NCBI RefSeq assembly: GCF_902506435.1
Contig: NZ_LR733215.1
Location: 1,759,467 to 1,823,466 of the forward strand
Direction: 5' to 3'
Length of the DNA: 64,000 bases
From: Nocardioides sp. AX2bis
GTDB lineage: Bacteria; Actinomycetota; Actinomycetes; Propionibacteriales; Nocardioidaceae
Position numbers and translations under genes: made by a program. How positions within the stretch are numbered: position 1 is the stretch's first letter; every line of letters begins with the position of its first letter. Of this stretch, positions 11,149 through 61,485 are shown one piece after another. A model generated the notes under the pieces. The model saw only the letters and a program-made list of their open reading frames with translations, made no database searches and was not told the DNA's origin.

Positions 11149-11191
11149 GTCACCTCGACGAAACAACCCCGACACCGGAGCCGCCTACCGT
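11149..11191 (+). promoter_or_regulatory. GlnR-type box and -10 of the type III glutamine synthetase gene
   Basis: GTCAC (11149-11153), 6 nt, GAAAC (11160-11164), 6 nt, GACAC (11171-11175), 10 nt, TACCGT (11186-11191). The alternating GTnAC/GAAAC half-sites on an 11-bp period match the actinobacterial GlnR consensus. Box-to-hexamer spacing is identical to that at glnA. The gene starts at 11242 after CGAGGAG, so unlike its neighbours it has a real leader and ribosome-binding site. Confidence 0.75.
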
Positions 11192-13428: not shown

Positions 13429-13533
13429 GCCTCACCGCCGGCGAGGTCCCGTCGTCCCGTCGCTTCGGGGCCGGGGCCGGGGCCGGGGCGCGGCCGAGCT
13501 ACCGTACGGGCGCAATGGCGGACGTGTGACGCA

Positions 13534-13547
13534 TTACTGGCCGGTAA
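13534..13547. promoter_or_regulatory. Isolated operator-like palindrome between convergent genes
   Basis: TTACTGGCCGGTAA is a 14-bp near-perfect inverted repeat (one wobble pair) resembling TetR-family operators. Unusually, it lies in the gap between two genes that both end here (13429-13605). The rest of this gap holds four tandem GGGGCC-like units (about 13469-13494) and a TACCGT hexamer near 13500, with no credible ORF. Confidence 0.3.
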
Positions 13548-13605
13548 CCCTGCAGGAACCACGCAATTGTGCCAGTTCAGCAACCCCGGCGGTACGCCCG
13601 CCGCG

Positions 13606-25582: not shown

Positions 25583-25636
25583 AACCTAGGCACGGGTGGT
25601 TTCTCGACCGTATCGTGATTGTTTCCCCCGTGTTAC
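25583..25636 (-). promoter_or_regulatory. Four-part GlnR box and -10 of glnA
   Basis: On the minus strand: GTAAC (25636-25632), 6 nt, GAAAC (25625-25621), 6 nt, GATAC (25614-25610), 6 nt, GAAAC (25603-25599), 10 nt, TAGGTT (25588-25583). This reproduces the full two-repeat GlnR consensus (GTnAC-n6-GAAAC, twice) and places the box at about -33 to -70, an activator position. Confidence 0.85.
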
Positions 25637-41647: not shown

Positions 41648-42314
41648 GGTGGTCGAGGAGCGAGCGGTGGCGCCGGTGGTCGAGGAGCGAGCGCCAGCGA
41701 GCGTCACGAGACCAGGTCTCCCCGGTGGTCGAGGAGCGAGCGCCAGCGAGCGTCACGAGACCGGGCACGCCGCGGGGCCGGTCAGGTCGTGATCCGATGT
41801 CACCAGGTGGCACCAGATCGCGAGCTGGGTCTCGTGACGCTCGCTTCGCTCGCTCCTCGACCACCGGTGGTTGGCGCTTGTTCCTCGACCACCGGTGGCT
41901 GACCCTCGCTCCTCGACCACCGGTGGCTGACGAGGGCGTCGGCCCGGTGGCCCCGGTGGTCGAGGAGCGAGCGCCAGCGAGCGTCACGAGACCTCGACCT
42001 GCGGATTTCACGTACCTGGTGCGTGAAACGGTCAGGTCGACGAGCGGGCGGTGGCCCCGGTGGTCGAGGAGCGAGCGCCAGCGAGCGTCACGAGACCAGG
42101 CACGCCGCGGGGCCGGTCAGGTCGTGATCCGGTGTCACCAGGTGGCACCAGATCGCGAGCTGGGTCTCGTGACGCTCGCTTCGCTCGCTCCTCGACCACC
42201 GACGCTGGTGCGGCCGGTGGGGTCCCCGGTGCGGCGGTACGGCTGCTGCTGGGGTCTCGTGACGCTCGCTTCGCTCGCTCCTCGACCACCGGGGCTGGCG
42301 CTCGCTCCTCGACC
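41648..42314. repeat. Block of dispersed 38-39 bp inverted repeats, gene-free
   Basis: Between folA and the nitrogen cluster (41643-42442) there is no gene. Forward units (GGTGGTCGAGGAGCGAGC through GTCACGAGACC) lie at 41675-41713, 41724-41762, 41955-41993 and 42059-42097; reverse units (GGTCTCGTGACGCTCGC through CTCGACCACC) at 41828-41865, 42163-42200 and 42253-42290, with partial units at 41648, 41881, 41906 and 42299. A segment of about 145 bp, forward unit plus 66-bp core plus reverse unit, is duplicated almost exactly at 41724-41868 and 42059-42203. ORFs across it are artefacts. The family recurs at 26.2 kb. Confidence 0.9.
41994..42040. repeat. Nested inverted repeat within the repeat block
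   Basis: Outer arms TCGACCTG/CAGGTCGA enclose inner arms TTTCACG/CGTGAAA around a 9-nt TACCTGGTG centre that is itself nearly palindromic. It is more AT-rich than its surroundings and could fold as an RNA hairpin or extruded cruciform. Confidence 0.65.
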
Positions 42315-42403
42315 GCCGCCGCGGGGGCGGTAGGCGCCGGAAACGTGGGCGGGGGACAGGTCACACGATCCTTACGTCCCCGGTCCGGCTCCGCATTCCT
42401 CTC

Positions 42404-42435
42404 GAAACCATTCCGAAACGATCGGCGCGCAGTGT
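42404..42435 (+). promoter_or_regulatory. GlnR-type half-sites and leaderless promoter of the Nit1 cluster
   Basis: GAAAC (42404-42408), 6 nt, GAAAC (42415-42419), 10 nt, CAGTGT (42430-42435), 7 nt, ATG at 42443. Half-site period and distance to the hexamer equal those at the two glutamine synthetase promoters. The first half-site is GAAAC rather than GTnAC but fits the looser GnnAC-n6-GnnAC form. Confidence 0.6.
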
Positions 42436-42442
42436 CGTCGTC

Positions 42443-43267
42443 ATGGGGAAGCACATCGACGACGCGCACCGCCACATCGGCGTGCTGCCGGCGTACCCGT
42501 TCTACGGCGGGCCGCCGGTCCGGCCGGACACGACCGCCAAGGCCACGGTCCGGGACTTCCTGGCCTCGCTCGACGCCGAGGGCGTCGAGCGGGCGCTGGT
42601 GCTGCCGAACTACGGCGTGCCCGACCCGCAGGTCGCCTTCGACCTGAACGCCCTGGCGCTCGAGGCGGCGCAGGCCGACGACCGGGTGCGGTGCGGCCTG
42701 TGGGTCTCGCCGAAGGCCTCGGACGCGGCGCGCAACGACGACGCCCTCGCCCTCGTCGGCGAGGAGGGGGTGGCCGCGCTCAAGACCAGCTTCCTGCTCG
42801 GCGGCGACCCCGACGACCCGGACTGCGCCGAGCAGCTCGACCGGATCTTCACGACCGCGGCCGCGCACGACCTCGTCGTGCACGTGCACACCAGCCCCGG
42901 CGCCGCCTCCGACGTCGACCGGATCGGCCACCTGGTCGACCGCTACGGCGACGACACCCGGATCCACCTCGTGCACCTCGGGGGCGGGATGAGCGGTCAC
43001 CTCAAGCTCATCGGTGGCCGGCTCTTCGACTGGATCGAGGCCGGCAAGCAGGTCTACACCGACACCTCGTGGGCCATCGGCTTCGCCCCGACCTGGCTGG
43101 TCGCCGAGATCGAGCGGCGCGGGGTCGGCCACGACCGCGTCCTGTTCGCCACGGACACCCCCTGGGGCGACTTCGCCGGCGAGCACGCCCGCCTGAGCGC
43201 GGCCGCCGGCGACGGCGACCTCGCCCGCACCTTCTTCACCGAGAACTTCGAAGCCCTCTACGGCTGA
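42443..43267 (+). CDS. Amidohydrolase family protein (Nit1 cluster)
   Basis: 274 residues from ATG. Amidohydrolase-2-type TIM barrel: DDAHRHIGV supplies the HxH metal ligands, LVVHVHTSPG the strand-5 His, IHLVHLGGG the strand-6 His, and FATDTPWGDF the strand-8 Asp. The family hydrolyses C-N or C-C bonds with one or two divalent metals. It is the first gene of the nitrogen cluster and carries its GlnR-type promoter; the next gene follows 55 nt later with its own AGGAG site. It may act on an amide or carboxylate intermediate of the pathway (inference). Confidence 0.85.
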   Translation: MGKHIDDAHRHIGVLPAYPFYGGPPVRPDTTAKATVRDFLASLDAEGVERALVLPNYGVPDPQVAFDLNALALEAAQADDRVRCGLWVSPKASDAARNDDALALVGEEGVAALKTSFLLGGDPDDPDCAEQLDRIFTTAAAHDLVVHVHTSPGAASDVDRIGHLVDRYGDDTRIHLVHLGGGMSGHLKLIGGRLFDWIEAGKQVYTDTSWAIGFAPTWLVAEIERRGVGHDRVLFATDTPWGDFAGEHARLSAAAGDGDLARTFFTENFEALYG

Positions 43268-43322: not shown

Positions 43323-43847
43323 ATGCCCGCGTTCGACGACGAGATCATGGCCAACATCGAGAAGTCCGTGGGGGAGATCCCGCACCCCTCGCAGGCCAAG
43401 GGGACGAACCTCTACGGCTCGACCAAGATCTTCCCCGACTACCAGGCCTCCGAGGGCCAGAGCTACCTGACGCTGGTGCACGGCATCCCGCACGAGTCGT
43501 CGGTCAGCTTCGTCGCCGTCCTCCAGGCCACCCGAGCGCTGCGCAAGGGCTTCGAGTCGGCGCTCTACTTCTACGGCCCCGGCGCCCTGGCCTGCATGGA
43601 CACCCGCGGCTTCCCGACCACCGGGGACGTGGCCTTCCCCGGCAACCAGAACATGAACGACTCCGTGAAGACCTTCATCGCCGAGGGCGGCACGGTCTTC
43701 TGCTGCCGCTTCGGGCTCGCCCTGCACGGCTGCCGCGAGGAGGACGTGATCGAGGGCGTCATCCCGGCGCACCCGCTCGACGTCCAGGACGCGGTCATCC
43801 ACTACGCCAACAAGGGCGCCATCATCAACTCCGTCTACAACCTCTGA
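43323..43847 (+). CDS. MSMEG_0572/Sll0783 family nitrogen starvation response protein
   Basis: 174 residues from ATG after CAGGAG. Recognisable as the Sll0783/MSMEG_0572 family: IEKSVGEIPHPSQAKGTNLY, ESALYFYGPGALACMDTRGF, FCCRFGLALHGCREEDVIEG and the conserved C-terminus GAIINSVYNL. The fold resembles small DsrE-type proteins with several conserved Cys, but the biochemical role is not established. It is induced by nitrogen starvation in Synechocystis and marks the Nit1 gene cluster. Placed 9 nt before the radical SAM gene. Confidence 0.92.
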   Translation: MPAFDDEIMANIEKSVGEIPHPSQAKGTNLYGSTKIFPDYQASEGQSYLTLVHGIPHESSVSFVAVLQATRALRKGFESALYFYGPGALACMDTRGFPTTGDVAFPGNQNMNDSVKTFIAEGGTVFCCRFGLALHGCREEDVIEGVIPAHPLDVQDAVIHYANKGAIINSVYNL

Positions 43848-43855
43848 GGCGCGAG

Positions 43856-44953
43856 ATGGCCGCGCCGCACACCCCGTCCCCGCGCTCGACCCGCGTCGAC
43901 GTCGCGATCCAGGGCATCCGCCTGCTCGACGCGCCCGTCGCGCGTCGCGCCGGCGCAGGCCCCAGCGACGACGGTCACGTGCTCCTCGACGGCGTCGGCG
44001 CGGCCGTCCCGCTCAACCCCCGCAGCCCCTACTCCGTGAGCGGTGGGCGCCTCCTGCTCGACGGTGCCGACACCGGGATGGGCGTCGAGTCGGTGGCCCG
44101 CCCCCGGTTCTACGACCTCACCACCGCCGACGGCGTGCCCTACGAGAAGCTCGCCCGCCTGCACTCCGCCAACGTGCTGGCCACCACGGTCGTGCAGACC
44201 TGCGTGCGCTACGAGGAGGCCGAGCGCTGCCGGTTCTGCGCGATCGAGGAGTCGCTGCGCCAGGGCTCGACCGTCGCGGTCAAGACACCGGCCCAGGTCG
44301 CGGAGGTGGCCCAGGCGGCGTACCAGCTCGACGGCATCCGCCAGATGGTGATGACCACCGGCACCTCCAACGGCCGCGACCGCGGCGCCACCCACCTCGC
44401 CCGCTGCGTGCGCGCGGTCCGCGAGGTGCTGCCCGACCTGCCGATCCAGGTGCAGTGCGAGCCGCCCGGCGACCTCGCCACGATCCAGGAGCTGTACGAC
44501 GCCGGTGCCCGCTCGATCGGCATCCACGTCGAGTCGCTCGACGACGACGTACGCCGCCGCTGGATGCCCTCCAAGGGCGTCGTGCCGATGGCCGAGTACC
44601 GCGCGGCCTGGGCCGAGGCCGTCCGCGTCTTCGGCTGGAACCAGGTCTCGACCTACCTGCTGATCGGGCTCGGCGAGGACCCCGACGAGCTCGTCGCCGG
44701 CGCCCGCGAGCTGATCGCCCTGGGTGTCTACCCCTTCGTCGTGCCGTTCCGTCCCCTGGCCGGCACGCTGGCCACCGATGTCGACGGCGTCGGCGCCCCG
44801 CCCCACGAGCTGGTCTACGACGTCACCTCCCGCGTCGCCGAGGCCCTGCGCGAGGCCGGGATGGCCGGGGCCGACCAGGCCGCCGGCTGCGCGGCCTGCG
44901 GCGCCTGCTCGGCCCTCGGCGCCTGCCCGTCGGCCGCGGAGCAGGCGTCGTGA
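43856..44953 (+). CDS. MSMEG_0568 family radical SAM enzyme
   Basis: 365 residues from ATG. The SAM-cluster cysteines lie in VVQTCVRYEEAERCRFCAIE, spaced C-x8-C-x2-C instead of the usual C-x3-C-x2-C. Biotin-synthase-like TIM-barrel segments follow (MVMTTGTSNGRDRGA, GARSIGIHVESLDDDV, VSTYLLIGLGEDPDELV). The C-terminus holds a second Cys group, GCAACGACSALGAC (C-x2-C-x2-C-x5-C), probably for an auxiliary Fe-S cluster. It is a Nit1-cluster enzyme of unknown reaction; the stop overlaps the GNAT-AIRS gene by 4 nt. Odd Cys spacing may be a family trait. Confidence 0.92.
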   Translation: MAAPHTPSPRSTRVDVAIQGIRLLDAPVARRAGAGPSDDGHVLLDGVGAAVPLNPRSPYSVSGGRLLLDGADTGMGVESVARPRFYDLTTADGVPYEKLARLHSANVLATTVVQTCVRYEEAERCRFCAIEESLRQGSTVAVKTPAQVAEVAQAAYQLDGIRQMVMTTGTSNGRDRGATHLARCVRAVREVLPDLPIQVQCEPPGDLATIQELYDAGARSIGIHVESLDDDVRRRWMPSKGVVPMAEYRAAWAEAVRVFGWNQVSTYLLIGLGEDPDELVAGARELIALGVYPFVVPFRPLAGTLATDVDGVGAPPHELVYDVTSRVAEALREAGMAGADQAAGCAACGACSALGACPSAAEQAS

Positions 44954-46422
44954 CCGGGCTGGTCGGCGACGTCGTCCTCACCGGACGCCCGCGCACCCCC
45001 GCCGCCGTCGACCCCGAGGCGTACGTCGTCGTGCCCGCCGCCGGCGCCGACCTCGCCGCCTACCGCCGGCTGCGCCACGACGTGTTCGTGGCCGAGCAGG
45101 GCCTCTTCGCCACGACCGACGCGGACGACGTCGACGACGACCCCCGCACCCGCGTGCTCGTCGCCCGCTCCCCGGACGGCGACGTGCTCGGCGGGGTCCG
45201 GGTCCACCCCGCGCACCACCCTGCGGTCGCCCCGGGACGCGACCCGGGATGGTGGCGGGGCTCGCGCCTGGTCGTCGCCCCCGGCGCCCGCCTCGGGCTG
45301 GGGGTCGGTGCCTCCCTCGTGCGCGCGGCCTGCGCCGAGGCCGAGTCGGCCGGGGCCCTGCGCTTCGACGCCACCGTGCAGGCGCAGAACGAGGTGCTGT
45401 TCCGCCGCCTCGGCTGGCAGGTCCGCGGCCACACCCACCTGCACGGCCACCCCCACGTCGAGGTCGACTGGCCGGTCGCCCGGGTGCAGCGGCTGGTGGC
45501 CTCGACCAAGGCCGCGCTCGGCGGGCTGCTCGACGGCCTCGTCGCGAGCCCGGCCGGGTTCCTCGGCGACGACGCCTCACCGGTGCCCGGCAGCGACCTG
45601 GTGGCCGCCTGCGACGCGATCCTGCCCGCGATGGTCGAGCGCGACCCGGAGTGGGCCGGCTGGTGCGCGGTCCTGGTCAACGTCAACGACCTCTGCGCGA
45701 TGGGCGCCACGCCCGTCGGGCTGCTCGACGCCGTCGCCGGGCGCGACGCCTCCTTCACCCGCCGCATCCTGCGCGGGCTCGGCGAGGCCTCCCGCGCCTG
45801 GGGCGTGCCGGTCCTCGGGGGGCACACCCAGACCGGTGTCCCCGCCGCCCTCTCGGTCACCGCGCTGGGCCGCGTCGCCTCGCCCGTCCCCGGCGCCGGC
45901 GGTCGCCCCGGCCACGCGGTGCGGGTCACCGCCGACCTCGGCGGCGGCTGGCGACCGGGCTACACCGGCGCCCAGTGGGACTCCTCCTCCCACCGCACGT
46001 CCGCCGAGCTGCAGTCGCTGGCCGGGGTCGTCCCGACCTTGGCCCCGGCCGCCGCCAAGGACGTCTCCATGGCCGGTCTCGTCGGCACGGTGGGCATGCT
46101 CGCCGAGGCCGGCGGCTGCCGCGCCGTGCTCGACGTCGCCGACGTCCCCGCCCCGGCCGACGCCGCGGCCGGCGACTGGCTGACCTGCTTCCCCGGCTTC
46201 GCCGTCGTCACCACCGACGCCCCGTCCCGCACGCCCGGCGCGCCCGGCGACGCCCTCCCCGGCTTCCTCACCTCCGCGACCTGCGGCGCGCTCGAGGCCG
46301 GTACGGGCGTCGGCCTGCGCTGGCCCGACGGCGTGGTCACCGAGGCCGTGGCCGCCGGGGTCACCGGGCTCGGCGCGGCCGGCCGTACGACCCTCCACCC
46401 CCATCGAGAGGACCACCGATGA
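44950..46422 (+). CDS. GNAT acetyltransferase-AIR synthase-like fusion (MSMEG_0567 / Sll0786-Sll0787)
   Basis: 490 residues from the GTG at 44950, overlapping the previous stop. The N-terminal GNAT domain (about 1-175; YRRLRHDVFVAEQGLF, RLVVAPGARLGLGVGASLV) corresponds to Sll0786. The C-terminal PurM-like domain (about 195-490; GDDASPVPG, VNVNDLCAMGATPVGLLDAV, AAKDVSMAGLVGTVGML) corresponds to Sll0787 and the AIR-synthase ATP-binding superfamily. In Synechocystis these are two genes; fusion is usual in mycobacterial-type clusters. It probably activates and acylates a pathway intermediate; substrates unknown. Confidence 0.92.
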   Translation: MTGLVGDVVLTGRPRTPAAVDPEAYVVVPAAGADLAAYRRLRHDVFVAEQGLFATTDADDVDDDPRTRVLVARSPDGDVLGGVRVHPAHHPAVAPGRDPGWWRGSRLVVAPGARLGLGVGASLVRAACAEAESAGALRFDATVQAQNEVLFRRLGWQVRGHTHLHGHPHVEVDWPVARVQRLVASTKAALGGLLDGLVASPAGFLGDDASPVPGSDLVAACDAILPAMVERDPEWAGWCAVLVNVNDLCAMGATPVGLLDAVAGRDASFTRRILRGLGEASRAWGVPVLGGHTQTGVPAALSVTALGRVASPVPGAGGRPGHAVRVTADLGGGWRPGYTGAQWDSSSHRTSAELQSLAGVVPTLAPAAAKDVSMAGLVGTVGMLAEAGGCRAVLDVADVPAPADAAAGDWLTCFPGFAVVTTDAPSRTPGAPGDALPGFLTSATCGALEAGTGVGLRWPDGVVTEAVAAGVTGLGAAGRTTLHPHREDHR

Positions 46423-47285
46423 GCACCAGCGTGGCGGCTGTCGCCGCCGGTTTCAGCCGGGACCTGGAGGCCGACCTGGCCCAGGTCGAGACCCTCACCG
46501 CCCAGGCCAGGGCACGCGGGGTGTCCGTCCTGGCGCTGCCCGAGGCCTGCCTCGGCGGCTACCTCTCGGCCCTGGGGCGGGGCCGCGACGGCACCCACGA
46601 TGAGGCGCCCGACTCGCTGCCCCCGGTCCTCGAGCTCGACGGACCCGAGCTGCGGCGCGTCGCCGCGGCCGCGCGGGAGATGACGCTGGTGGTCGGGTTC
46701 TGCGAGGCGGACGGGCCCCGGCGCTACAACAGCGCCGCCGTCGTCAGCGGCGAGGGCGTGCTCGGGGTGCACCGCAAGGTCCACCAGCCGCTGGGGGAGG
46801 ACCTGCACTACGAGGCTGGGGAGGACCTGCGCGCCTTCGACACGCCGGCCGGCCGGGTCGGGGCCCTGATCTGCTACGACAAGGCGTTCCCCGAGTCGGC
46901 CCGCGCCCTGGCCCTCGACGGCGCCGGGATCATCGCCTGCATCTCGGCCTGGCCGGCCTCGCGCACCGCCACCGCCGGCTCGATCGTCGAGGACCGGTGG
47001 ACCCACCGCTTCAACATCTTCGACCAGGCCCGCGCCCTGGAGAACCAGGTCGTGTGGCTGGCCTCCAACCAGGCCGGCACGTTCGGCTCGCTGCGCTTCG
47101 TCTCCCACGCCAAGGTCGTCGGCCCGGGCGGGGACGTGCTCGCCTCCACGGGCGCCGACGCCGGGATGGCCGTGGCCACCCTGGACGTCGACGACGTCCT
47201 CGGCACCGCGCGCCGCTCGATGTTCCACCTCGGCGACCGCCGCCCGGAGCTCTACGACTACGACCGGGTGGCCGCGCATGCCTGA
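46419..47285 (+). CDS. Nitrilase-superfamily carbon-nitrogen hydrolase (Nit1 cluster, catalytic triad intact)
   Basis: 288 residues from the ATG overlapping the previous stop. The nitrilase triad is complete: Glu42 in LALPEACLGGY, Lys120 in VHRKVHQP and Cys152 in GALICYDKAFPES. Shorter than Synechocystis Nit6803 (about 346), so closer to the amidase/CN-hydrolase type found in MSMEG-like clusters. Likely hydrolyses a nitrile, cyanide-derived group or amide of the cluster's metabolite; Nit1C clusters have been linked to cyanide assimilation in pseudomonads. An inactive-looking paralogue lies three genes downstream. Confidence 0.92.
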   Translation: MSTSVAAVAAGFSRDLEADLAQVETLTAQARARGVSVLALPEACLGGYLSALGRGRDGTHDEAPDSLPPVLELDGPELRRVAAAAREMTLVVGFCEADGPRRYNSAAVVSGEGVLGVHRKVHQPLGEDLHYEAGEDLRAFDTPAGRVGALICYDKAFPESARALALDGAGIIACISAWPASRTATAGSIVEDRWTHRFNIFDQARALENQVVWLASNQAGTFGSLRFVSHAKVVGPGGDVLASTGADAGMAVATLDVDDVLGTARRSMFHLGDRRPELYDYDRVAAHA

Positions 47286-47580
47286 GATGAGCTTCGCCGT
47301 CCGCTGGCCCGACGGCCGGGTGGAGGAGTGCTACTCGCCGTCGCTGGTGGTGCACGACCACCTCGCCGCGGGCGCGACCTACACCGTCACCGAGCTGACC
47401 GACCGTGCCGCCCGCGCGATGGCCACCGCCAGCGACCGGGTCCGCGAGCGGTACGGGTTCGCCTGCACGTCCGCGGCCGCCACCACCGCCCAGGTCCGTC
47501 GTTCCGCCGCGGCCTACGACCCCACCGCCCTCGTCGAGGTGGTCGCGATGTGGCCACCGCTCCCGGAGGAGACCCGATGA
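47278..47580 (+). CDS. MSMEG_0570 family nitrogen starvation response protein
   Basis: 100 residues from the ATG at 47278, overlapping the nitrilase end by 8 nt. Typical family start FAVRWPDGRVEECYSPSLVV and mid-region AGATYTVTELTDRAARAM, ending in MWPPLPEETR. Small soluble protein of unknown function found only in Nit1-type clusters. Its stop overlaps the flavoprotein start by 4 nt. Confidence 0.92.
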   Translation: MPEMSFAVRWPDGRVEECYSPSLVVHDHLAAGATYTVTELTDRAARAMATASDRVRERYGFACTSAAATTAQVRRSAAAYDPTALVEVVAMWPPLPEETR

Positions 47581-48890
47581 CCCCGTCCCACCAGACCGGC
47601 CCGTCCGACCGGACCGGCCCGACCGAGCACCACGAGGTCGTCGTCGTCGGCGGTGGCCAGGCGGGGCTGTCCACCAGCTGGTGCCTGACCCGCGACGGCG
47701 TCGACCACGTCGTGCTCGAGGCCCGCACCCTGACGCACGAGTGGACCGACAGCCGCTGGGACTCCTTCACCCTGGTCACGCCCAACTGGCAGTGCCGGCT
47801 GCCGGGCTACGCCTACGACGGCCCCGACCCCGACGGCTTCATGACCCGCGAGGAGGTCGTGGCCTGGCTGGCCGGCTACCCCGCCACCTTCGGCCCGCCG
47901 GTGCGCGAGCACACGGCGGTGACCCGGCTCGCCGAGCGTGACGGCGGCGGGTTCGAGCTCACCGCCCACGGTCCCGACGGCCCGGCGACCATGACCGCCG
48001 ACCACGTCGTGGTGGCCACCGGCGGCTACCACCTGCCGATCGTCCCGCCCTGGGCGCCCGCGCTCGACCCGGCGGTCACCCAGCTGCAGTCGGCGGACTA
48101 CCGCCACCCCGGCCAGCTGCCCGACGGCGCCGTCCTGGTCGTCGGCTCCGGGCAGTCCGGCGCCCAGATCGCCGAGGACCTCCACCTCGCCGGCCGCCAG
48201 GTCCACCTCGCGGTCGGCGACGCGCCCCGGGTGGCGCGCCGCTACCGCGGCCGCGACGTCATGACCTGGCTCTGCGACATGGGGCTCTACGACACCCCGG
48301 TCGCCTCCTACCCCGGCGGCTCCGCCGCGCGGGAGAAGACCAACCACTACGTCACCGGCCGCGACGGTGGCCGCGACATCGACCTCCGCGCGTTCGCCGC
48401 CGACGGGATGCGCCTCTACGGCCTGCTCGAGGGCGGCGAGGACACCCAGGTCCGCTTCCTGCCCACGCTCACCGCGGCGCTCGACGCGGCCGACGCGACG
48501 TACCGCTCCATCAACCGCGACGTCGACCGGTTCGTCGAGCGGGAGGGCCTCGACGCGCCCCCGGCCTCCTCCTACGAGCCCGTCTGGGCGCCGGAGGAGG
48601 ACCCGGCCGTCCTCGACCTGGTGGCCGAGGGCGTCACCAGCATCGTGTGGGCCATCGGCTACCGCGCCGACTACCGCTGGGTGGACGTCGGCGTCTTCGC
48701 CGGCAACGGCCGCCCCGCCCACACCCGCGGCGTCACCGCCGTGCCCGGCCTCTACTTCCTCGGCCTGCCCTGGCTGCACACGTGGGGCTCGGGGCGGTTC
48801 TTGGGCATCGCCGCGGACGCCGAGCACGTCGTCTCCTGCATCACCGGGTCCCGCCGTACGGCCGCGCCCGCGACGGCCCGGGTCGGCTGA
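47577..48890 (+). CDS. MSMEG_0569 family flavin-dependent oxidoreductase
   Basis: 437 residues from the ATG at 47577. Two Rossmann motifs mark an FMO-like two-dinucleotide-binding flavoprotein: VVVVGGGQAGLSTSW for FAD and VLVVGSGQSGAQIAEDL for NADPH, with HVVVATGGYHLP between and a C-terminal GLPWLHTWGSGRFLGI. It resembles Baeyer-Villiger/N-hydroxylating monooxygenases and probably oxidises an N- or C-centre of the cluster's metabolite using O2 and NADPH. Substrate unknown. Followed 3 nt later by the second nitrilase homologue. Confidence 0.93.
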   Translation: MTPSHQTGPSDRTGPTEHHEVVVVGGGQAGLSTSWCLTRDGVDHVVLEARTLTHEWTDSRWDSFTLVTPNWQCRLPGYAYDGPDPDGFMTREEVVAWLAGYPATFGPPVREHTAVTRLAERDGGGFELTAHGPDGPATMTADHVVVATGGYHLPIVPPWAPALDPAVTQLQSADYRHPGQLPDGAVLVVGSGQSGAQIAEDLHLAGRQVHLAVGDAPRVARRYRGRDVMTWLCDMGLYDTPVASYPGGSAAREKTNHYVTGRDGGRDIDLRAFAADGMRLYGLLEGGEDTQVRFLPTLTAALDAADATYRSINRDVDRFVEREGLDAPPASSYEPVWAPEEDPAVLDLVAEGVTSIVWAIGYRADYRWVDVGVFAGNGRPAHTRGVTAVPGLYFLGLPWLHTWGSGRFLGIAADAEHVVSCITGSRRTAAPATARVG

Positions 48891-48893
48891 GAC

Positions 48894-49754
48894 GTGCCCG
48901 CGCTCCGGATCGGCGCGGTCGCGGGCCACTTCGGGAGGGACGTGGGCAGGGCCCTGGACAAGGTGGAGGGCGTCGTCGGCGCCGCCCGCCAGGCCGGGGT
49001 CGGGCTGCTGGTCCTGCCCGACGCCACGCTCGGCGGCTACCTCTCGGACCTGCGCCGGCCCGACCCCGACTCGCTGCCGCCCGGTCTGTCCGAGGACGGC
49101 CCGGAGGTGGCCCGGGTGCGCGCCGCCGCCCGCGACATGGTGGTCTGCCTGGGGTACGCCGAGGAGGTCCCCGTCGGCGACCGGACCCTGCTCTACAACG
49201 CCGCGGTGTGCGTGCACGGCGACGGCGTCCTGGGCCGGCACCGCAAGGTCCACCAGCCGGCCGGCGAGGCGCTCGTCTACGCCGCCGGCGACACCTTCCG
49301 CGCCTTCGACACCCCGGTCGGCCGGCTCGGGATGCTCATCGACTACGACAAGACCTTCCCCGAGACCGCGCGCACCCTGGCCCTCGGCGGAGCGGAGACC
49401 GTCGCCTGCCTGTCCGCGTGGCCGGCCTCGGTCACCGACCGCGCCTCGAGGCTCCCGCGCGATCGCCAGGCCCGGCTCTTCGACCTGTACGACCAGGCCC
49501 GCGCCGCGGAGAACCAGGTCGTGTGGGCGTCGTCGAACCAGACCGGCGTGACGGGCGGGCTGCGGTTCCTCGGCCAGGCCAAGGTGGTCGGTCCGGGCGG
49601 TGACGTCCTGGCCCGGACCGGGGCCAAGGGCGGCCTGGCCGTCGCCGAGGTCGATGTCGCCGCCGAGGTCGCGCGCGCCCGCCGCGTGCTGCACCACCTC
49701 GACGAGCTCGTGCCCGCCGCCTACCGCGCGTCGGCAGCGGAGGTGCGCCCGTGA
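48894..49754 (+). CDS. Nitrilase-superfamily pseudoenzyme (catalytic Cys and Glu replaced)
   Basis: 286 residues from GTG. Close paralogue of the intact enzyme at 46419 (shared HRKVHQP, LRAFDTP-type and SAWPAS segments), but two triad residues differ: Glu42 is Asp43 (LVLPDATLGGYL) and Cys152 is Asp150 (GMLIDYDKTFPET; codon GAC at 49341-49343). Lys118 remains. Without the Cys nucleophile normal nitrilase/amidase chemistry is not possible, so it may be a structural partner, a substrate-binding regulator or an enzyme with new chemistry. The frame is undisturbed and translationally coupled to the next gene, arguing against decay. Confidence 0.9.
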   Translation: MPALRIGAVAGHFGRDVGRALDKVEGVVGAARQAGVGLLVLPDATLGGYLSDLRRPDPDSLPPGLSEDGPEVARVRAAARDMVVCLGYAEEVPVGDRTLLYNAAVCVHGDGVLGRHRKVHQPAGEALVYAAGDTFRAFDTPVGRLGMLIDYDKTFPETARTLALGGAETVACLSAWPASVTDRASRLPRDRQARLFDLYDQARAAENQVVWASSNQTGVTGGLRFLGQAKVVGPGGDVLARTGAKGGLAVAEVDVAAEVARARRVLHHLDELVPAAYRASAAEVRP

Positions 49755-50887
49755 TCGTCTCCGGCCCGGCCGTCGGCACCACACCGCCCCGGGTGGCCCT
49801 GCTGACCTACTCCACCCGCCCCCGCGGCGGGGTCGTCCACACGCTCGCGCTGGCCGAGGCGCTGGTCGCGCTCGGCGTCCGCGTCGACGTGTGGACCCTG
49901 GCCCGCGGCGGTGACGCCGCGTTCTTCCGCCCGGTCGACCCGAGGGTCGGCGTCCGCGCCGTGCCCTTCCCCGAGGTCGCCGACGAGACGGTGGGGGAGC
50001 GGATCGTGCGATCGATCGCCGTCCTCGGCGACGTCTTCGACGCGGCGCGGGAGGCGTACGACGTGGTGCACGCCCAGGACTGCATCTCGGCCAACGCCGC
50101 GCTGCCCTGCGTCCGCACGGTGCACCACCTCGACACCTTCACCACCCCCGAGCTGGCCGCCTGCCACGACCGCGCCGTCGCGGCGCCGAGCGACCTGGTC
50201 TGCGTGTCGGCCGCGGTGGCCGGCGAGGTGCGCGACGGGTGGGGCCGCGTGGCCACCGTCATCCCCAACGGCGTCGACGCCGCCCGGTTCGCGGCCGGGG
50301 CCCAGGACGCCGCCGGCCGGTCGCGGTGGGCCGACCGGCTCGGTCGCTACGTCCTGGCCCTCGGCGGCATCGAGCCGCGCAAGGCCAGCCTCGACCTGCT
50401 CGAGGTGTACGCCGCGCTGCCGCCCGACCTGCGCGCCACGCGCCGGCTCGTCCTCGGTGGCGGCGAGACGCTCTTCGACTACCGCGACTACCGCGCGGCC
50501 TTCGACCGGCGCTGTGCCGAGCTCGGCGTCGAGCCGGTCGTCCTCGGCACGCTCGGCGAGGACGAGCTGCCGGCGCTCGTGGCGCAGGCCGACGTGCTGG
50601 CGATGGTCTCGACCAAGGAGGGGTTCGGGCTGGCCGCGATGGAGGCGCTGGCCGCGGGCGTGCCCGTGGTCGCGCGGGACCTCCCGGTGCTGCGCGAGGT
50701 CCTCGGCGACGCCGTCGCCTACGCCGCGGACCCGCCGGGCACCACCGCGGCGCTGACCGGGGTGCTGGCCGGGGTGCTGTCCGCGCCGCCGGACCCGGCG
50801 CCGGGACGCGCGGTGGCGGCGTCCTACACCTGGGACCGCGCGGCGCGCGCGCACCTCGTGCTCTACGAGCGGCTGCTCGGGCGATAA
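49751..50887 (+). CDS. MSMEG_0565 family glycosyltransferase
   Basis: 378 residues from the GTG overlapping the previous stop. GT4-type GT-B fold: VALLTYSTRPRGGVVHTLAL at the N-terminus, a mid IPNGVDAARF, YVLALGGIEPRKASLDLLEV, and the C-terminal donor site EGFGLAAMEALAAGVPVVARD with the conserved E-x7-E pattern. It probably attaches a sugar to the cluster's small-molecule product. Last gene of the Nit1 unit; its TAA stop is part of the dapA -10 hexamer. Confidence 0.92.
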   Translation: MIVSGPAVGTTPPRVALLTYSTRPRGGVVHTLALAEALVALGVRVDVWTLARGGDAAFFRPVDPRVGVRAVPFPEVADETVGERIVRSIAVLGDVFDAAREAYDVVHAQDCISANAALPCVRTVHHLDTFTTPELAACHDRAVAAPSDLVCVSAAVAGEVRDGWGRVATVIPNGVDAARFAAGAQDAAGRSRWADRLGRYVLALGGIEPRKASLDLLEVYAALPPDLRATRRLVLGGGETLFDYRDYRAAFDRRCAELGVEPVVLGTLGEDELPALVAQADVLAMVSTKEGFGLAAMEALAAGVPVVARDLPVLREVLGDAVAYAADPPGTTAALTGVLAGVLSAPPDPAPGRAVAASYTWDRAARAHLVLYERLLGR

Positions 50888-50896: not shown

Positions 50897-51789
50897 ATGA
50901 CCTCCACCCCCGCGGCCCCGTTCGGCAGGGTCCTCACGGCGATGGCCACGGCGTTCGACGCGGACGGCGGGGTCGACCTCGAGGGCACCGCACGGATCGC
51001 GGTGCACCTGGTCGAGCACGGCCACGACGGCGTCGTCGTCTCCGGCACCACGGGGGAGTCCCCGACGACCACGGTCCGCGAGGACGGCGCGATCCTGGCT
51101 GCGGTCAAGGACGCCGTCGGCGACCGTGCCGTGGTGGTCGCCGGCGTCGGCACCAACGACACCGCCCACTCGGTGCAGCTGGCCCGCCAGGCCGCCGAGG
51201 TCGGCGCCGACGGCCTGCTGCTGGTCACGCCGTACTACAACAAGCCCTCGCCGGCCGGGGTGCTGCTGCACTTCCGCAGCGTGGTCGAGGCCACCGACGT
51301 GCCGGTGATGCTCTACGACGTGCCCGGGCGCACCGCCACGACCATCTCGATGGACGTCTACGAGCAGGCGATCGCCTGGGACCCCGTCGTCGCGGTCAAG
51401 GACGCGACCGCCGACCTCGCCCGGGGGCTGCGGCTGCGGCAGCTCGGCTACGCCGTCTACTCCGGCGACGACGCCATGAACCTGGCCTGGCTGGCCCACG
51501 GCGCGGCCGGCGTCGTCAGCGTCGCGGGCCACGTGGTCGGCGAGCAGCTGGCCGAGATGGTGCGCGCCTTCCACGCCGGCGACCCCGCCCGCGCGCTCGA
51601 GCTCCACGCCGCCATGCAGCCCGCGGTCGACGCCGTGATGGGGCCGGCCAACTACGGCGCCACCACCGCCAAGGCCGCGCTCGAGCTGCTCGGCGTCCTG
51701 GACAACCGCCGCGTACGACCCCCGCTGGCCGCCCTCGACGACGACGAGATGTCCGCGCTGCGTGCCGGGCTCGAGGCCGCCGGGGGTGA
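50897..51789 (+). CDS. dapA: 4-hydroxy-tetrahydrodipicolinate synthase with apparent 3' frameshift
   Basis: About 297 residues of normal DapA from ATG: HLVEHGHDGVVVSGTTGESP, VVVAGVGTNDT, LLVTPYYNKPSPAGVL with the active-site Tyr, VMLYDVPGRTATT, AVKDATADL with the Schiff-base Lys and YSGDDAM. It condenses pyruvate and aspartate semialdehyde in lysine/diaminopimelate synthesis. The frame does not stop where it should: at 51782-51786 there are five G; six would give GGG-GGG-TGA, with TGA overlapping the RNase J start. As written the frame runs on to 52687 as an out-of-frame reading of rnj. A sequencing indel, or a -1 slip on the G run, would restore the end shown. Confidence 0.88.
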
Positions 51790-53432
51790 GCGCAGGCGGC
51801 CTCCGTGTCGTCCCGCTGGGCGGCCTGGGCGACATCGGTCGCAACATGACCGTCTTCGAGCACGAGGGACGTCTCCTCCTCGTCGACTGCGGCGTGCTCT
51901 TCCCCGAGGAGCACCAGCCCGGGGTGGACCTGGTCCTGCCCGACTTCTCCTGGATCCGCGACCGCCTCGACGACGTCGAGGCGCTGGTGCTGACGCACGG
52001 CCACGAGGACCACGTCGGCGCGACGCCGTACCTGCTGCGCGAGCGTCCCGACATCCCGCTCGTCGGCTCGCGGCTGACCCTGGCGCTGCTCGAGCCCAAG
52101 CTGCGCGAGCACCGGCTGCGCCAGAGCGTCCAGCACGTCGTCGCCGAGGGCGACACGATCTCCTTCGGCCCCTTCGAGCTCGAGCTGGTCGCGGTGAACC
52201 ACTCGATCCCCGACGCGCTCGCCGTCGCGATCCGCACCACCGCCGGCCTGGTGCTGCACACCGGCGACTTCAAGATGGACCAGCTGCCCCTCGACGGCCG
52301 GCTCACCGACCTGCGCGCCTTCGCGCGGCTGGGGGAGGAGGGCGTCGACCTCTTCCTCACCGACTCCACCAACGCCGAGACCCCGGGCTTCACCACGGCG
52401 GAGACCAGCATCACCCCGGTGCTCGACCAGGTCTTCCAGCAGGCGCAGGGCCGGCTCGTGGTGGCCTGCTTCGCCTCCCACGTCCACCGCGTCCAGCAGG
52501 TCCTCGACGCCGCGGTCGCCCACGGACGCAAGGTCGGCTACGTCGGCCGCTCGATGGTGCGGAACATGGCCATCGCCCGCGACCTGGGCTACCTGCGGGT
52601 CCCCGAGGGCGTGGTCGTCGAGGCCAAGGAGCTCGCCGGCCTCCCGCCGGAGCGTCAGGTGCTGGTCTCCACCGGGTCCCAGGGTGAGCCGATGAGCGCG
52701 CTCAGCCGGATGGCCCAGGGCACCCACCAGCTCGTGCAGGTCGGCGAGGAGGACACGGTGGTGCTGGCCTCCAGCCTGATCCCGGGCAACGAGACGGCGG
52801 TCTACCGGGTGATCAACGGGTTGGCCGGGCTCGGCGCGCGGGTGGTGCACCAGGGCAACGCGCTGGTGCACGTCTCGGGTCACGCCAGTGCCGGCGAGCT
52901 GCTCTACTGCTACAACATCGTCCGCCCGCGCGCCGTCATGCCGGTGCACGGCGAGGTCCGCCACCTGCGCGCCAACGCCGAGCTGGTGCGGCGTGCCGGG
53001 GTCCCCGACGTCGTCGTGGCCGGGGACGGCGTGGTCGTCGACCTGGTCGACGGACGCGTCGACGTCGTGGGCCGGGTGCCCTGCGAGTACGTCTACGTCG
53101 ACGGGTCCTCGGTGGGGCAGGTCACCGAGGCCGACCTCAAGGACCGCCGGATCCTCGGCGAGGAGGGCTTCCTCTCGGTGGTGGTCGTCGTCGACCTGGC
53201 CCGGGCCGCGGTGCTGGCCGAGCCGGAGGTGCACGCGCGGGGCAACGCGCTCCAGCACGTCGACCTCGGCGACGTCCGGGCGGAGGTCGTCGCCGCCCTG
53301 ACCGGGGCGCTCGCGGACGGCACGACGGACGTCCAGCAGCTGCAGCAGGTGCTGCGCCGGACGCTGGGACGGTGGGTCAGCCGCACCCACCGCCGACGTC
53401 CGATGATCGTGCCCGTCGTGGTCGTCGCCTGA
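51786..53432 (+). CDS. rnj: Ribonuclease J
   Basis: 548 residues from the GTG at 51786, placed over the expected dapA stop. Metallo-beta-lactamase/beta-CASP nuclease: VLTHGHEDHVGATPYLL metal-binding motif, LHTGDFKMD, LTDSTNAETPGFT, beta-CASP STGSQGEPMSALSRMA and HVSGHASAGEL, then VMPVHGEVRHLRANAEL and a C-terminal RNase J domain. It performs 5'-3' exo- and endonucleolytic mRNA and rRNA processing. dapA-rnj linkage is conserved in actinobacteria. The ending, RPMIVPVVVVA, is typical. Confidence 0.96.
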   Translation: MSAGGLRVVPLGGLGDIGRNMTVFEHEGRLLLVDCGVLFPEEHQPGVDLVLPDFSWIRDRLDDVEALVLTHGHEDHVGATPYLLRERPDIPLVGSRLTLALLEPKLREHRLRQSVQHVVAEGDTISFGPFELELVAVNHSIPDALAVAIRTTAGLVLHTGDFKMDQLPLDGRLTDLRAFARLGEEGVDLFLTDSTNAETPGFTTAETSITPVLDQVFQQAQGRLVVACFASHVHRVQQVLDAAVAHGRKVGYVGRSMVRNMAIARDLGYLRVPEGVVVEAKELAGLPPERQVLVSTGSQGEPMSALSRMAQGTHQLVQVGEEDTVVLASSLIPGNETAVYRVINGLAGLGARVVHQGNALVHVSGHASAGELLYCYNIVRPRAVMPVHGEVRHLRANAELVRRAGVPDVVVAGDGVVVDLVDGRVDVVGRVPCEYVYVDGSSVGQVTEADLKDRRILGEEGFLSVVVVVDLARAAVLAEPEVHARGNALQHVDLGDVRAEVVAALTGALADGTTDVQQLQQVLRRTLGRWVSRTHRRRPMIVPVVVVA

Positions 53433-58606: not shown

Positions 58607-58802
58607 AGGACGGGGGAGGGATTGGTCCATACCTCTGCGTAACAAGTCGGTGTCACCCCGACGTCACCAGCGCGTCGACGCGACGACACCGTCGCGTGGT
58701 CGCCCTGTGGGGCCTCCGTGGACGGATCGGTGGTCCCGGGACCGTCCGACCGGTCCCAAGACACGCACTCCTGTGGTCCGTGGGACGCATGTGACGCAGA
58801 AC

Positions 58803-58808
58803 TAGGGT
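58803..58808 (+). promoter_or_regulatory. -10-like hexamer TAGGGT, leaderless start of ftsK
   Basis: The hexamer is followed by 7 nt and the ATG at 58816, favouring this start over the GTG at 58807, which overlaps the hexamer. Confidence 0.5.
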
Positions 58809-58815
58809 GTCGACC

Positions 58816-61485
58816 ATGGCGACCCGTACGTCTTCCCCGCCGGGGTCGCGGAGCAAGAGCACGTCCTCGTCCACGTCGACCAGCACCAGCCGGTCCACGA
58901 GTGGCAAGGGCTCCTCGACTCCTCGTACCCGGAGCACGCGGAAGCCCCCCAGCCCCTCCTCCCGCTCGACCTCCCGCTCGACCCCGAAGAAGCGGCCCGC
59001 CCCCCGTGCGGTCCGCTCCGGACCGAGCCCGGTCGTGCGCGTGGCAGGCGTCGGGGCCCGCGGGGTCGCGGCCACCTGGAGCGCGGTGGCCGGCGGCGTC
59101 GGCGCCGCCGCCCGCGGGGTCGGTCACACCGCCCGCGACCTCGAGCCCGAGCACCGTCGCGACGGAGCCGGCCTCGTCCTGCTCGGCCTCGCGCTGGTCT
59201 CGGCCGCCGCGGTCTGGTTCGAGGTGCCCGGTGGCGCGATGGAGCTGGCCCGCACCCTGGTCACCGGCAGCGTCGGGCAGGTCGGCTGGCTGGTGCCGCT
59301 GGCCCTGGTCGTCGCCGGGTGGCGCGTCATGCGCGACCCGGTCCGCAACGGCCCCGCCGGCCGGCAGGTCATCGGCTGGTCGGCGCTGTCCTTCGGCGTG
59401 CTCGGCGTCGTCCACGTCGCCGCCGGCGACCCGCAGCCGCTGGCCGGCGACACCTCGCCGCTGCGCCAGGGCGGGGGAGCGGTCGGCTACGTCGTCGCCT
59501 CGCTCCTGCTCGACCTGCTCCGTACCCCGTTCGTCGTGGTGCCGGTGCTGCTGCTGCTCTGCTTCTTCGGCGTCCTGGTCATCACCGCCACGCCGGTCTA
59601 CCGGGTGCCCGAGCGCCTCGCCGACCTGCGCGACCTCCTCCTGGGCCGCGGCCCGGTCGACGAGGACGGCCTCGACGACGGCGCCCCCACCCAGCCGATC
59701 CGCACCCGCCGGACGGCCGCCGAGATCGACCCCGACGCGGGCGACCCGCCGTACGACAGCCCGGTCCTCTCCGACCGCGAGATCCGCAAGCGGGCGAGAA
59801 AGGCCGCGCCCGCGGAGGACGCGCCCTACGACGTCGACGCGGACTCCGAGGACACCCAGCTCGGGATGCCGCCCACCCCGGACGAGGCGCCGGCGGCGCG
59901 CACCCCGCGCCGCCGCCCCGCGCCGGCTCCGGACCCCGAGCCCGAGCAGGCCGAGCTCGTCCCGCCGCCGCACGCCGACCTGCCGGCCCGCGTCGAGCAG
60001 CTCGCGCTGTCCGGCGACGTGGTCTACAGCCTGCCGACCAGCGAGGTCCTCAAGCCCGGCTCGGTCCACAAGGCCCGCTCCAAGGCCAGCGACGCGGTCG
60101 TCGACCGGCTGACCCAGGTCCTCGACGAGTTCGCGATCGACGCGCAGGTCACCGGCTACACCCGGGGCCCCACGGTGACGCGCTACGAGGTCGAGCTCGG
60201 CCCCGCGGTCAAGGTCGAGAAGGTCACCGCGCTGAGCAAGAACATCGCCTACGCCGTCGCCTCGGCCGACGTCCGGATCCTCAGCCCGATCCCGGGCAAG
60301 TCCGCGATCGGCATCGAGATCCCGAACCTGGACAAGGAGATTGTCTCGCTCGGCGACGTCCTGCGCTCCAACGTCGCCCGCAACGACCACCACCCGATGG
60401 TCGCCGGGCTCGGCAAGGACGTCGAGGGCGGCTTCGTGGTCGCCAACCTGGCCAAGATGCCGCACCTGCTGGTGGCCGGCGCGACCGGCTCGGGCAAGAG
60501 CTCCTTCATCAACTCGATGATCACCTCGGTGCTGATGCGCTCCACGCCCGACGAGGTCCGGATGATCATGGTCGACCCCAAGCGGGTCGAGCTGAACGCC
60601 TACGAGGGCGTGCCGCACCTGATCACCCCGATCATCACCAGCCCGAAGAAGGCCGCCGAGGCGCTGGCCTGGGTCGTGCGCGAGATGGACCTGCGCTACG
60701 ACGACCTCGCCAACTTCGGGTTCCGCCACATCGACGACTTCAACAAGGCCGTGCGGGCCGGCAAGGTCGAGCTGCCCGCGGGCAGCGAGCGGGTGCTCGC
60801 GCCGTACCCGTACCTGTTGGTCATCGTCGACGAGCTGGCCGACCTGATGATGGTCGCCCCGCGCGACGTCGAGGACGCGGTCGTACGGATCACCCAGCTG
60901 GCCCGGGCCGCCGGCATCCACCTGGTGCTGGCCACCCAGCGCCCCTCGGTGGACGTCGTGACCGGCCTGATCAAGGCCAACGTGCCGTCGCGGCTCGCCT
61001 TCGCCACCTCGTCGCTGGCCGACAGCCGCGTCATCCTCGACCAGCCGGGGGCCGAGAAGCTCGTCGGCCAGGGTGACGGGCTGTTCCTGCCGATGGGCGC
61101 CTCCAAGCCCGCGCGCATCCAGGGTGCCTGGGTGACCGAGGCCGAGATCGCCCAGGTCGTGGCCCACTGCAAGACCCAGCTGCAGCCGACGTACCGCGAG
61201 GACGTCACCGTCCCCGCGGCCGCCAAGCGTGACCTCGACGACGACATCGGTGACGACCTGGACCTCGTGGTCCAGGCGATCGAGCTCGTCGTCTCCACGC
61301 AGTTCGGCTCGACCTCGATGCTCCAGCGCAAGCTGCGCGTGGGCTTCGCCAAGGCCGGGCGCCTGATGGACATCCTCGAGAGCCGCGGGGTGGTGGGCCC
61401 CAGCGAGGGGTCCAAGGCCCGCGACGTCTTGGTCAAGCCCGACGAGGTCGACGGCGTCATCGCCATCATCCAGGGGGAACAGTGA
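58816..61485 (+). CDS. ftsK: FtsK/SpoIIIE DNA translocase
   Basis: 889 residues from the ATG at 58816. A Ser/Thr/Arg-rich N-terminal tail (1-65) precedes four membrane segments (about 110-270), a charged Pro/Asp/Glu-rich linker (about 280-390), the alpha and RecA-like beta motor domains (Walker [15 protein letters not shown], Walker [34 protein letters not shown]) and the gamma winged-helix domain ([19 protein letters not shown]) that reads KOPS-type sequences. It moves chromosome ends through the septum at division. Its stop overlaps the downstream RodZ-like gene. Confidence 0.97.

Follow-up and report, generated by a model that had tools for sequence, protein, structure and literature searches.

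A very likely GlnR-activated promoter in front of a gpr-type nitrogen-starvation operon in Nocardioides

Gene content of the operon

Within the window, the 64-kb stretch of DNA analysed here, a forward-strand operon opens with an amidohydrolase (PF04909; 42443–43267), whose ATG at 42443 is a probable leaderless start. It continues with an MSMEG_0572/Sll0783 family nitrogen starvation response protein (43323–43847; TIGR04044, 233.5 bits against a cut-off of 109.9), an MSMEG_0568 family radical SAM protein (43856–44953; TIGR04043, 505 bits) and an MSMEG_0567 family GNAT and AIR-synthase-like fusion (44950–46422; TIGR04050, 441 bits; TIGR04045, 95 bits), whose AIRS part matches the MSMEG_0567 model and lies below the sll0787 cut-off. 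Further downstream lie a carbon-nitrogen hydrolase at the MSMEG_0571 position (46419–47285; PF00795), an MSMEG_0570 family nitrogen starvation response protein (47278–47580; TIGR04042, 118 bits), an MSMEG_0569 family flavin-dependent oxidoreductase with an approximate start (47580–48890; TIGR04046, 639 bits), a second carbon-nitrogen hydrolase at the MSMEG_0566 position (48894–49754; PF00795 and synteny) and an MSMEG_0565 family glycosyltransferase (49751–50887; TIGR04047, 419 bits). The gpr set 0565–0572 is complete, with six NCBIfam models above cut-off and a PF00795 protein in each of the 0566 and 0571 positions. A DHDPS-family gene (50897–52687) follows the operon and has no comparable conservation with it across relatives.

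The first-pass annotation had called this a Nit1 cluster, a name that fits in part. The Nit1C cluster of cyanobacteria and proteobacteria, linked to cyanotrophy, shares the 0572/Sll0783 (ORF1), radical SAM, GNAT, AIR-synthase-like, 0570-type (ORF6) and flavoprotein genes with the operon, but in the strict sense it is defined by a subfamily 1 (Nit6803-type) nitrilase (PMC1199592), which is missing here. The hydrolase at 46419–47285 is not of the Nit6803 type and reaches 41 bits against TIGR04048 with a cut-off of 502.6, so the label is loose; the profile search reported no TIGR04048 match for 48894–49754. Unlike Nit1C, the operon also has GNAT and AIRS fused, and it adds two other carbon-nitrogen hydrolases, the glycosyltransferase and the amidohydrolase.

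The same orthologous families make up MSMEG_0565–0572 (gpr) of M. smegmatis, where a GlnR box likewise stands before the operon and direct control is proven. The present operon differs from its mycobacterial counterpart in being led by the amidohydrolase, in its order (0572-0568-0567-CN-hydrolase-0570-0569-CN-hydrolase-0565), and in having the box before the amidohydrolase with a probably leaderless start.

Architecture of the promoter

The GlnR box occupies 42404–42419 of the forward strand and is supported by sequence, conservation and shuffles. It consists of two half-sites, GAAAC at 42404–42408 and GAAAC at 42415–42419, separated by the 6-nt spacer cattcc. A 10-nt gap (gatcggcgcg) leads to the -10-like hexamer CAGTGT (42430–42435), which agrees with TANNNT at only two bases, and a further 7 nt (cgtcgtc) lead to ATG 42443. 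Each element of the first-pass description, GAAAC-n6-GAAAC, 10 nt, hexamer, 7 nt and ATG, is exact in the window sequence. The element GAAACcattccGAAAC fits the actinobacterial GlnR box AC-n9-AC, that is, GNNAC-n6-GNAAC (PMC3662644, PMC10704036). With 10 nt to the hexamer, as at glnA1 and GSIII, the box is predicted to overlap the -35 region. With the ATG placed so tightly, 7 nt past the hexamer, the transcript is probably leaderless, starting at or beside 42443.

The box is one part of a wider conserved footprint, which enlarges the initial picture of the site. On its 5' side, a conserved TTCC (42396–42399) occupies the position where a third direct half-site would otherwise fall, as seen in the alignment of 44 promoters described below, and a half-site pair GTCAC-n6-CTTAC (42360–42375), corresponding to columns -41 and -30, lies further upstream in the same 11-bp register. 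Upstream of the promoter, repeated GTGACGCTCGCTTCGCTCGCTCCTCGACCACC units occur at 42165–42315.

Two glutamine synthetase promoters in the window provide references: GTCAC-n6-GAAAC-n6-GACAC-n10-TACCGT before the type III synthetase gene GSIII (PF12437), at 11149–11191 on the forward strand, and GTAAC-n6-GAAAC-n6-GATAC-n6-GAAAC-n10-TAGGTT before the type I synthetase gene glnA1 (TIGR00653, 666 bits), at 25583–25636 on the reverse strand. The 11-bp half-site period and the 10-nt gap are common to glnA1, GSIII and the 42404 site, in agreement with the equality that had been claimed for them. Across the family, the 10-nt gap recurs in almost every glnA1 promoter (11 nt in two, unreadable in one), which validates the geometric comparison; the GSIII promoters of relatives (5 loci) are too sparse and variable to add weight. 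Like GlnR promoters of glnA and amtB in general (gTnAC-n6-GaAAC arrays), the 42404 site has 11-bp head-to-tail half-sites with a GAAAC b-site, and its 10-nt distance to the -10 hexamer is that of the window's own glnA1. Whereas glnA1 combines a leader with an unbroken run of four direct half-sites, the 42404 site has two contiguous direct half-sites, TTCC at the third position, a skipped register and then the upstream pair. The leaders measure about 50 and 86 nt at the two synthetase promoters against essentially none at 42443.

Rarity of the box and matrix scores

Genome-wide statistics are pattern searches. The box is the sole exact GAAAC-n6-GAAAC in the window, and none of 100 dinucleotide shuffles contains one; the 4.2-Mb genome holds 3 exact matches, and the reversed control gives 0. 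The second match (contig C8, 446916–446931) falls across the start codon of a MoaD-like gene that points away from the adjacent, divergent glnR, reflecting either autoregulation or chance, and the third sits before a ribosomal-protein region. Since these two other matches have no evident regulatory role, the exact word alone is no proof. The 32-bp composite GNNAC-n6-GNAAC-n10-YANNNT likewise occurs 3 times in the genome (control 0), and two of these matches, the glnA1 promoter and the 42404 site, fall inside the window. A search allowing two mismatches found 11 matches with 11 expected.

A GlnR matrix built from 38 Streptomyces venezuelae ChIP-chip sites (PMC3087709), applied here to a Nocardioides host, gives the box 14.5 bits and rank 5 of about 128,000 positions (P 2.6e-6 per position); ranks 1 and 2 in the window are the two synthetase promoters. 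For the reading of the site as GlnR-like, put forward in the first-pass annotation with such a scan in view, this result cuts both ways: the rank and score stand in its favour, and 0.33 matches of that score are expected by chance per 64-kb random sequence. Sites at 58652 and 13533, with no clear nitrogen link, score as high as the box. The matrix score by itself is thus suggestive rather than decisive, and it is comparative conservation that settles the 42404 site.

The two other high-scoring regions have features of their own. A GTAAC/GTCAC-type 11-bp repeat array (58628–58667; matrix 14.9, slightly above the box) lies about 140 nt upstream of an ftsK-like gene (58807–61485) and might be a site of the MtrA or PhoP type. 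A GTTAC/GTAAT/GTAAC cluster (13533–13559; matrix 14.7) sits just past the type III synthetase gene and has no obvious promoter role.

Conservation across relatives

Conservation was sampled among related lineages, with amidohydrolase relatives from 80 named loci classed by linkage of the operon genes; one locus (L098) was left out, its contig ending before the operon front. In all 43 loci where the amidohydrolase gene leads the operon (43/43), a box lies no more than 75 nt from the start of that gene. Upstream of the amidohydrolase it occurs in 0/23 loci where the flavoprotein gene comes first and in 0/13 unlinked homologues, and the background rate is 1.3% at other ORF starts (27/2069) and 1.7% in random 85-nt windows. 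Within the genus, 15 of 98 sampled genomes have the cluster, and all 15 have the box. A leave-one-out promoter matrix scores the 42404 site at 54.5, the next best position in the window reaching -13.6.

The flavoprotein-first loci were scanned over their full length with a matrix from the amidohydrolase-first promoters. In 21/23 of them the top match falls immediately upstream of the flavoprotein gene or of the 0570 gene paired with it; in L077 the top match precedes the amidohydrolase and the second lies at the operon front, and in L091 the full-locus scan gave no match. The element therefore tracks the operon front (43/43 against 0/23 and 0/13) and is a feature of the operon, not of the amidohydrolase gene as such. 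A plasmid of Rhodococcus qingshengii likewise carries the element ahead of the operon, as do loci whose genes are arranged as in M. smegmatis. Among the 13 unlinked loci, 11 show no match and two a weak one, at about -1 to -2. These two, L093 and L104 of Actinomycetospora, carry a weak GCAGC-n6-GAAAC-n10-CAGGGT at the start of the unlinked amidohydrolase. The flavoprotein-first locus L125 has a promoter-like element ahead of each of two genes, the flavoprotein gene and the amidohydrolase, the latter element being the stronger.

Alignment of 44 promoters, comprising the 43 loci and the window, defines the footprint. All of them end the -10 hexamer in T (44/44), and counting from the first box base puts the start codon at 38–40 nt in every promoter (20, 23 and 1 cases, respectively). 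The fourth base of the half-site is conserved at 11-bp steps, in columns -41 (A in 34/44), -30 (A in 27/44), +3 and +14; columns +3 and +14 were fixed by the search pattern, and -41, -30, T31, C5, A6 and TTCC were not.

The TTCC element

Positions -8 to -5 read TTCC in 38/44 promoters, with RTTCC in 33/44, and TTCC is also present in differently ordered operons. The glnA1 promoters lack it at that place and have a direct half-site there instead. This conserved TTCC replacing one half-site is the sole open novelty of the promoter. A pan-actinobacterial composite promoter, in which TTCC serves as an inverted GlnR half-site or as the site of a second regulator and makes the GlnR response differ from that of glnA and amtB, is a tentative proposal. 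Taken by itself, and as an addition to GlnR activation, the idea that a second factor reads TTCC or the upstream pair is rather unlikely. It draws on the distribution of TTCC just described and on the SoxR box reported at the M. smegmatis promoter (PMC6039565), where, however, the SoxR effect is only about 2-fold; moreover, RTTCC can be read from its letters as an inverted GlnR half-site, GGAAY, in the same 33/44 promoters.

GlnR and other candidate regulators

The genome encodes one clear GlnR, recognised by PF21695 GlnR_1st (145.9 bits) and PF00486, with 8hih, 8hig and 4o1h as its best PDB matches; 4o1h is named GlnR in the table of matches, and 8hih and 8hig are GlnR structures too. The protein is 63% identical to an M. 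tuberculosis sequence. GlnR control of the orthologous operon is documented in M. smegmatis, where the MSMEG_0572 promoter coincides with GlnR ChIP-seq peak 4 (peak 27.1) and shows 263-fold GlnR dependence (PMC3662644), the operon promoter is bound by GlnR in gel shift (EMSA; PMC4222082), and the operon undergoes >500-fold GlnR-dependent induction and is linked to peroxide resistance and NADPH balance (PMC6039565). A search of open-access papers returned no account of GlnR acting on this operon in non-mycobacterial species; with such restricted coverage, that absence carries little weight.

Other OmpR-family regulators bind similar sequences. MtrA recognises sites much like those of GlnR and represses Streptomyces nitrogen genes (PMC9045223); at glnA, glnII and amtB the sites of PhoP overlap those of GlnR (PMC10704036), and the genome has several further OmpR-type regulators. 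By analogy, MtrA may compete for the 42404 site. That MtrA or PhoP is the main binder, with GlnR secondary or competing and the operon repressed or tuned by other signals, is very improbable, for the operon in M. smegmatis is almost wholly GlnR-dependent (PMC6039565), and the half-sites here are of the GAAAC b-site type, in keeping with glnA1. Still less credible is a functionless GAAAC-n6-GAAAC that resembles a GlnR box by chance, a reading allowed by the 0.33 matrix matches expected per window and the two apparently non-regulatory matches among three in the genome but contradicted by the 43/43 and 15/15 conservation, the transfer with the operon front and the invariant spacing to the -10 hexamer and ATG.

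Proposed mechanism and significance

The preferred reading is a GlnR-activated promoter of a gpr-type (MSMEG_0565–0572) nitrogen-starvation operon. GlnR regulation is very likely in view of the M. smegmatis control and a promoter footprint kept across actinobacterial families. The first-pass proposal of a direct mechanism for nitrogen-starvation induction gains support here: GlnR is encoded, the box, gap and ATG are conserved, the element follows the operon front, and the M. smegmatis ortholog is a proven target. For Nocardioides, we infer nitrogen-starvation induction, GlnR binding, the start site and cotranscription. Under nitrogen limitation, GlnR would bind the 11-bp-spaced head-to-tail half-sites covering the -35 region and recruit RNA polymerase to the weak -10 hexamer exactly 10 nt downstream. 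The probably leaderless transcript would begin at or beside ATG 42443 and span the amidohydrolase, 0572, 0568, 0567, CN-hydrolase, 0570, 0569, CN-hydrolase and 0565 genes.

The finding is well supported but largely expected, since GlnR control of the equivalent M. smegmatis genes has been proven before. It implies that GlnR control of the gpr/Nit1C-like operon is probably no mycobacterial oddity, the element being kept in sampled Nocardioidaceae, Geodermatophilaceae, Streptosporangiaceae and Pseudonocardiaceae and in Kribbella and Rhodococcus. The amidohydrolase gene, which lies within the operon in many sampled families, is a new candidate enzyme for the gpr pathway, and the promoter yields a clear prediction, namely that the operon would be induced by nitrogen starvation.
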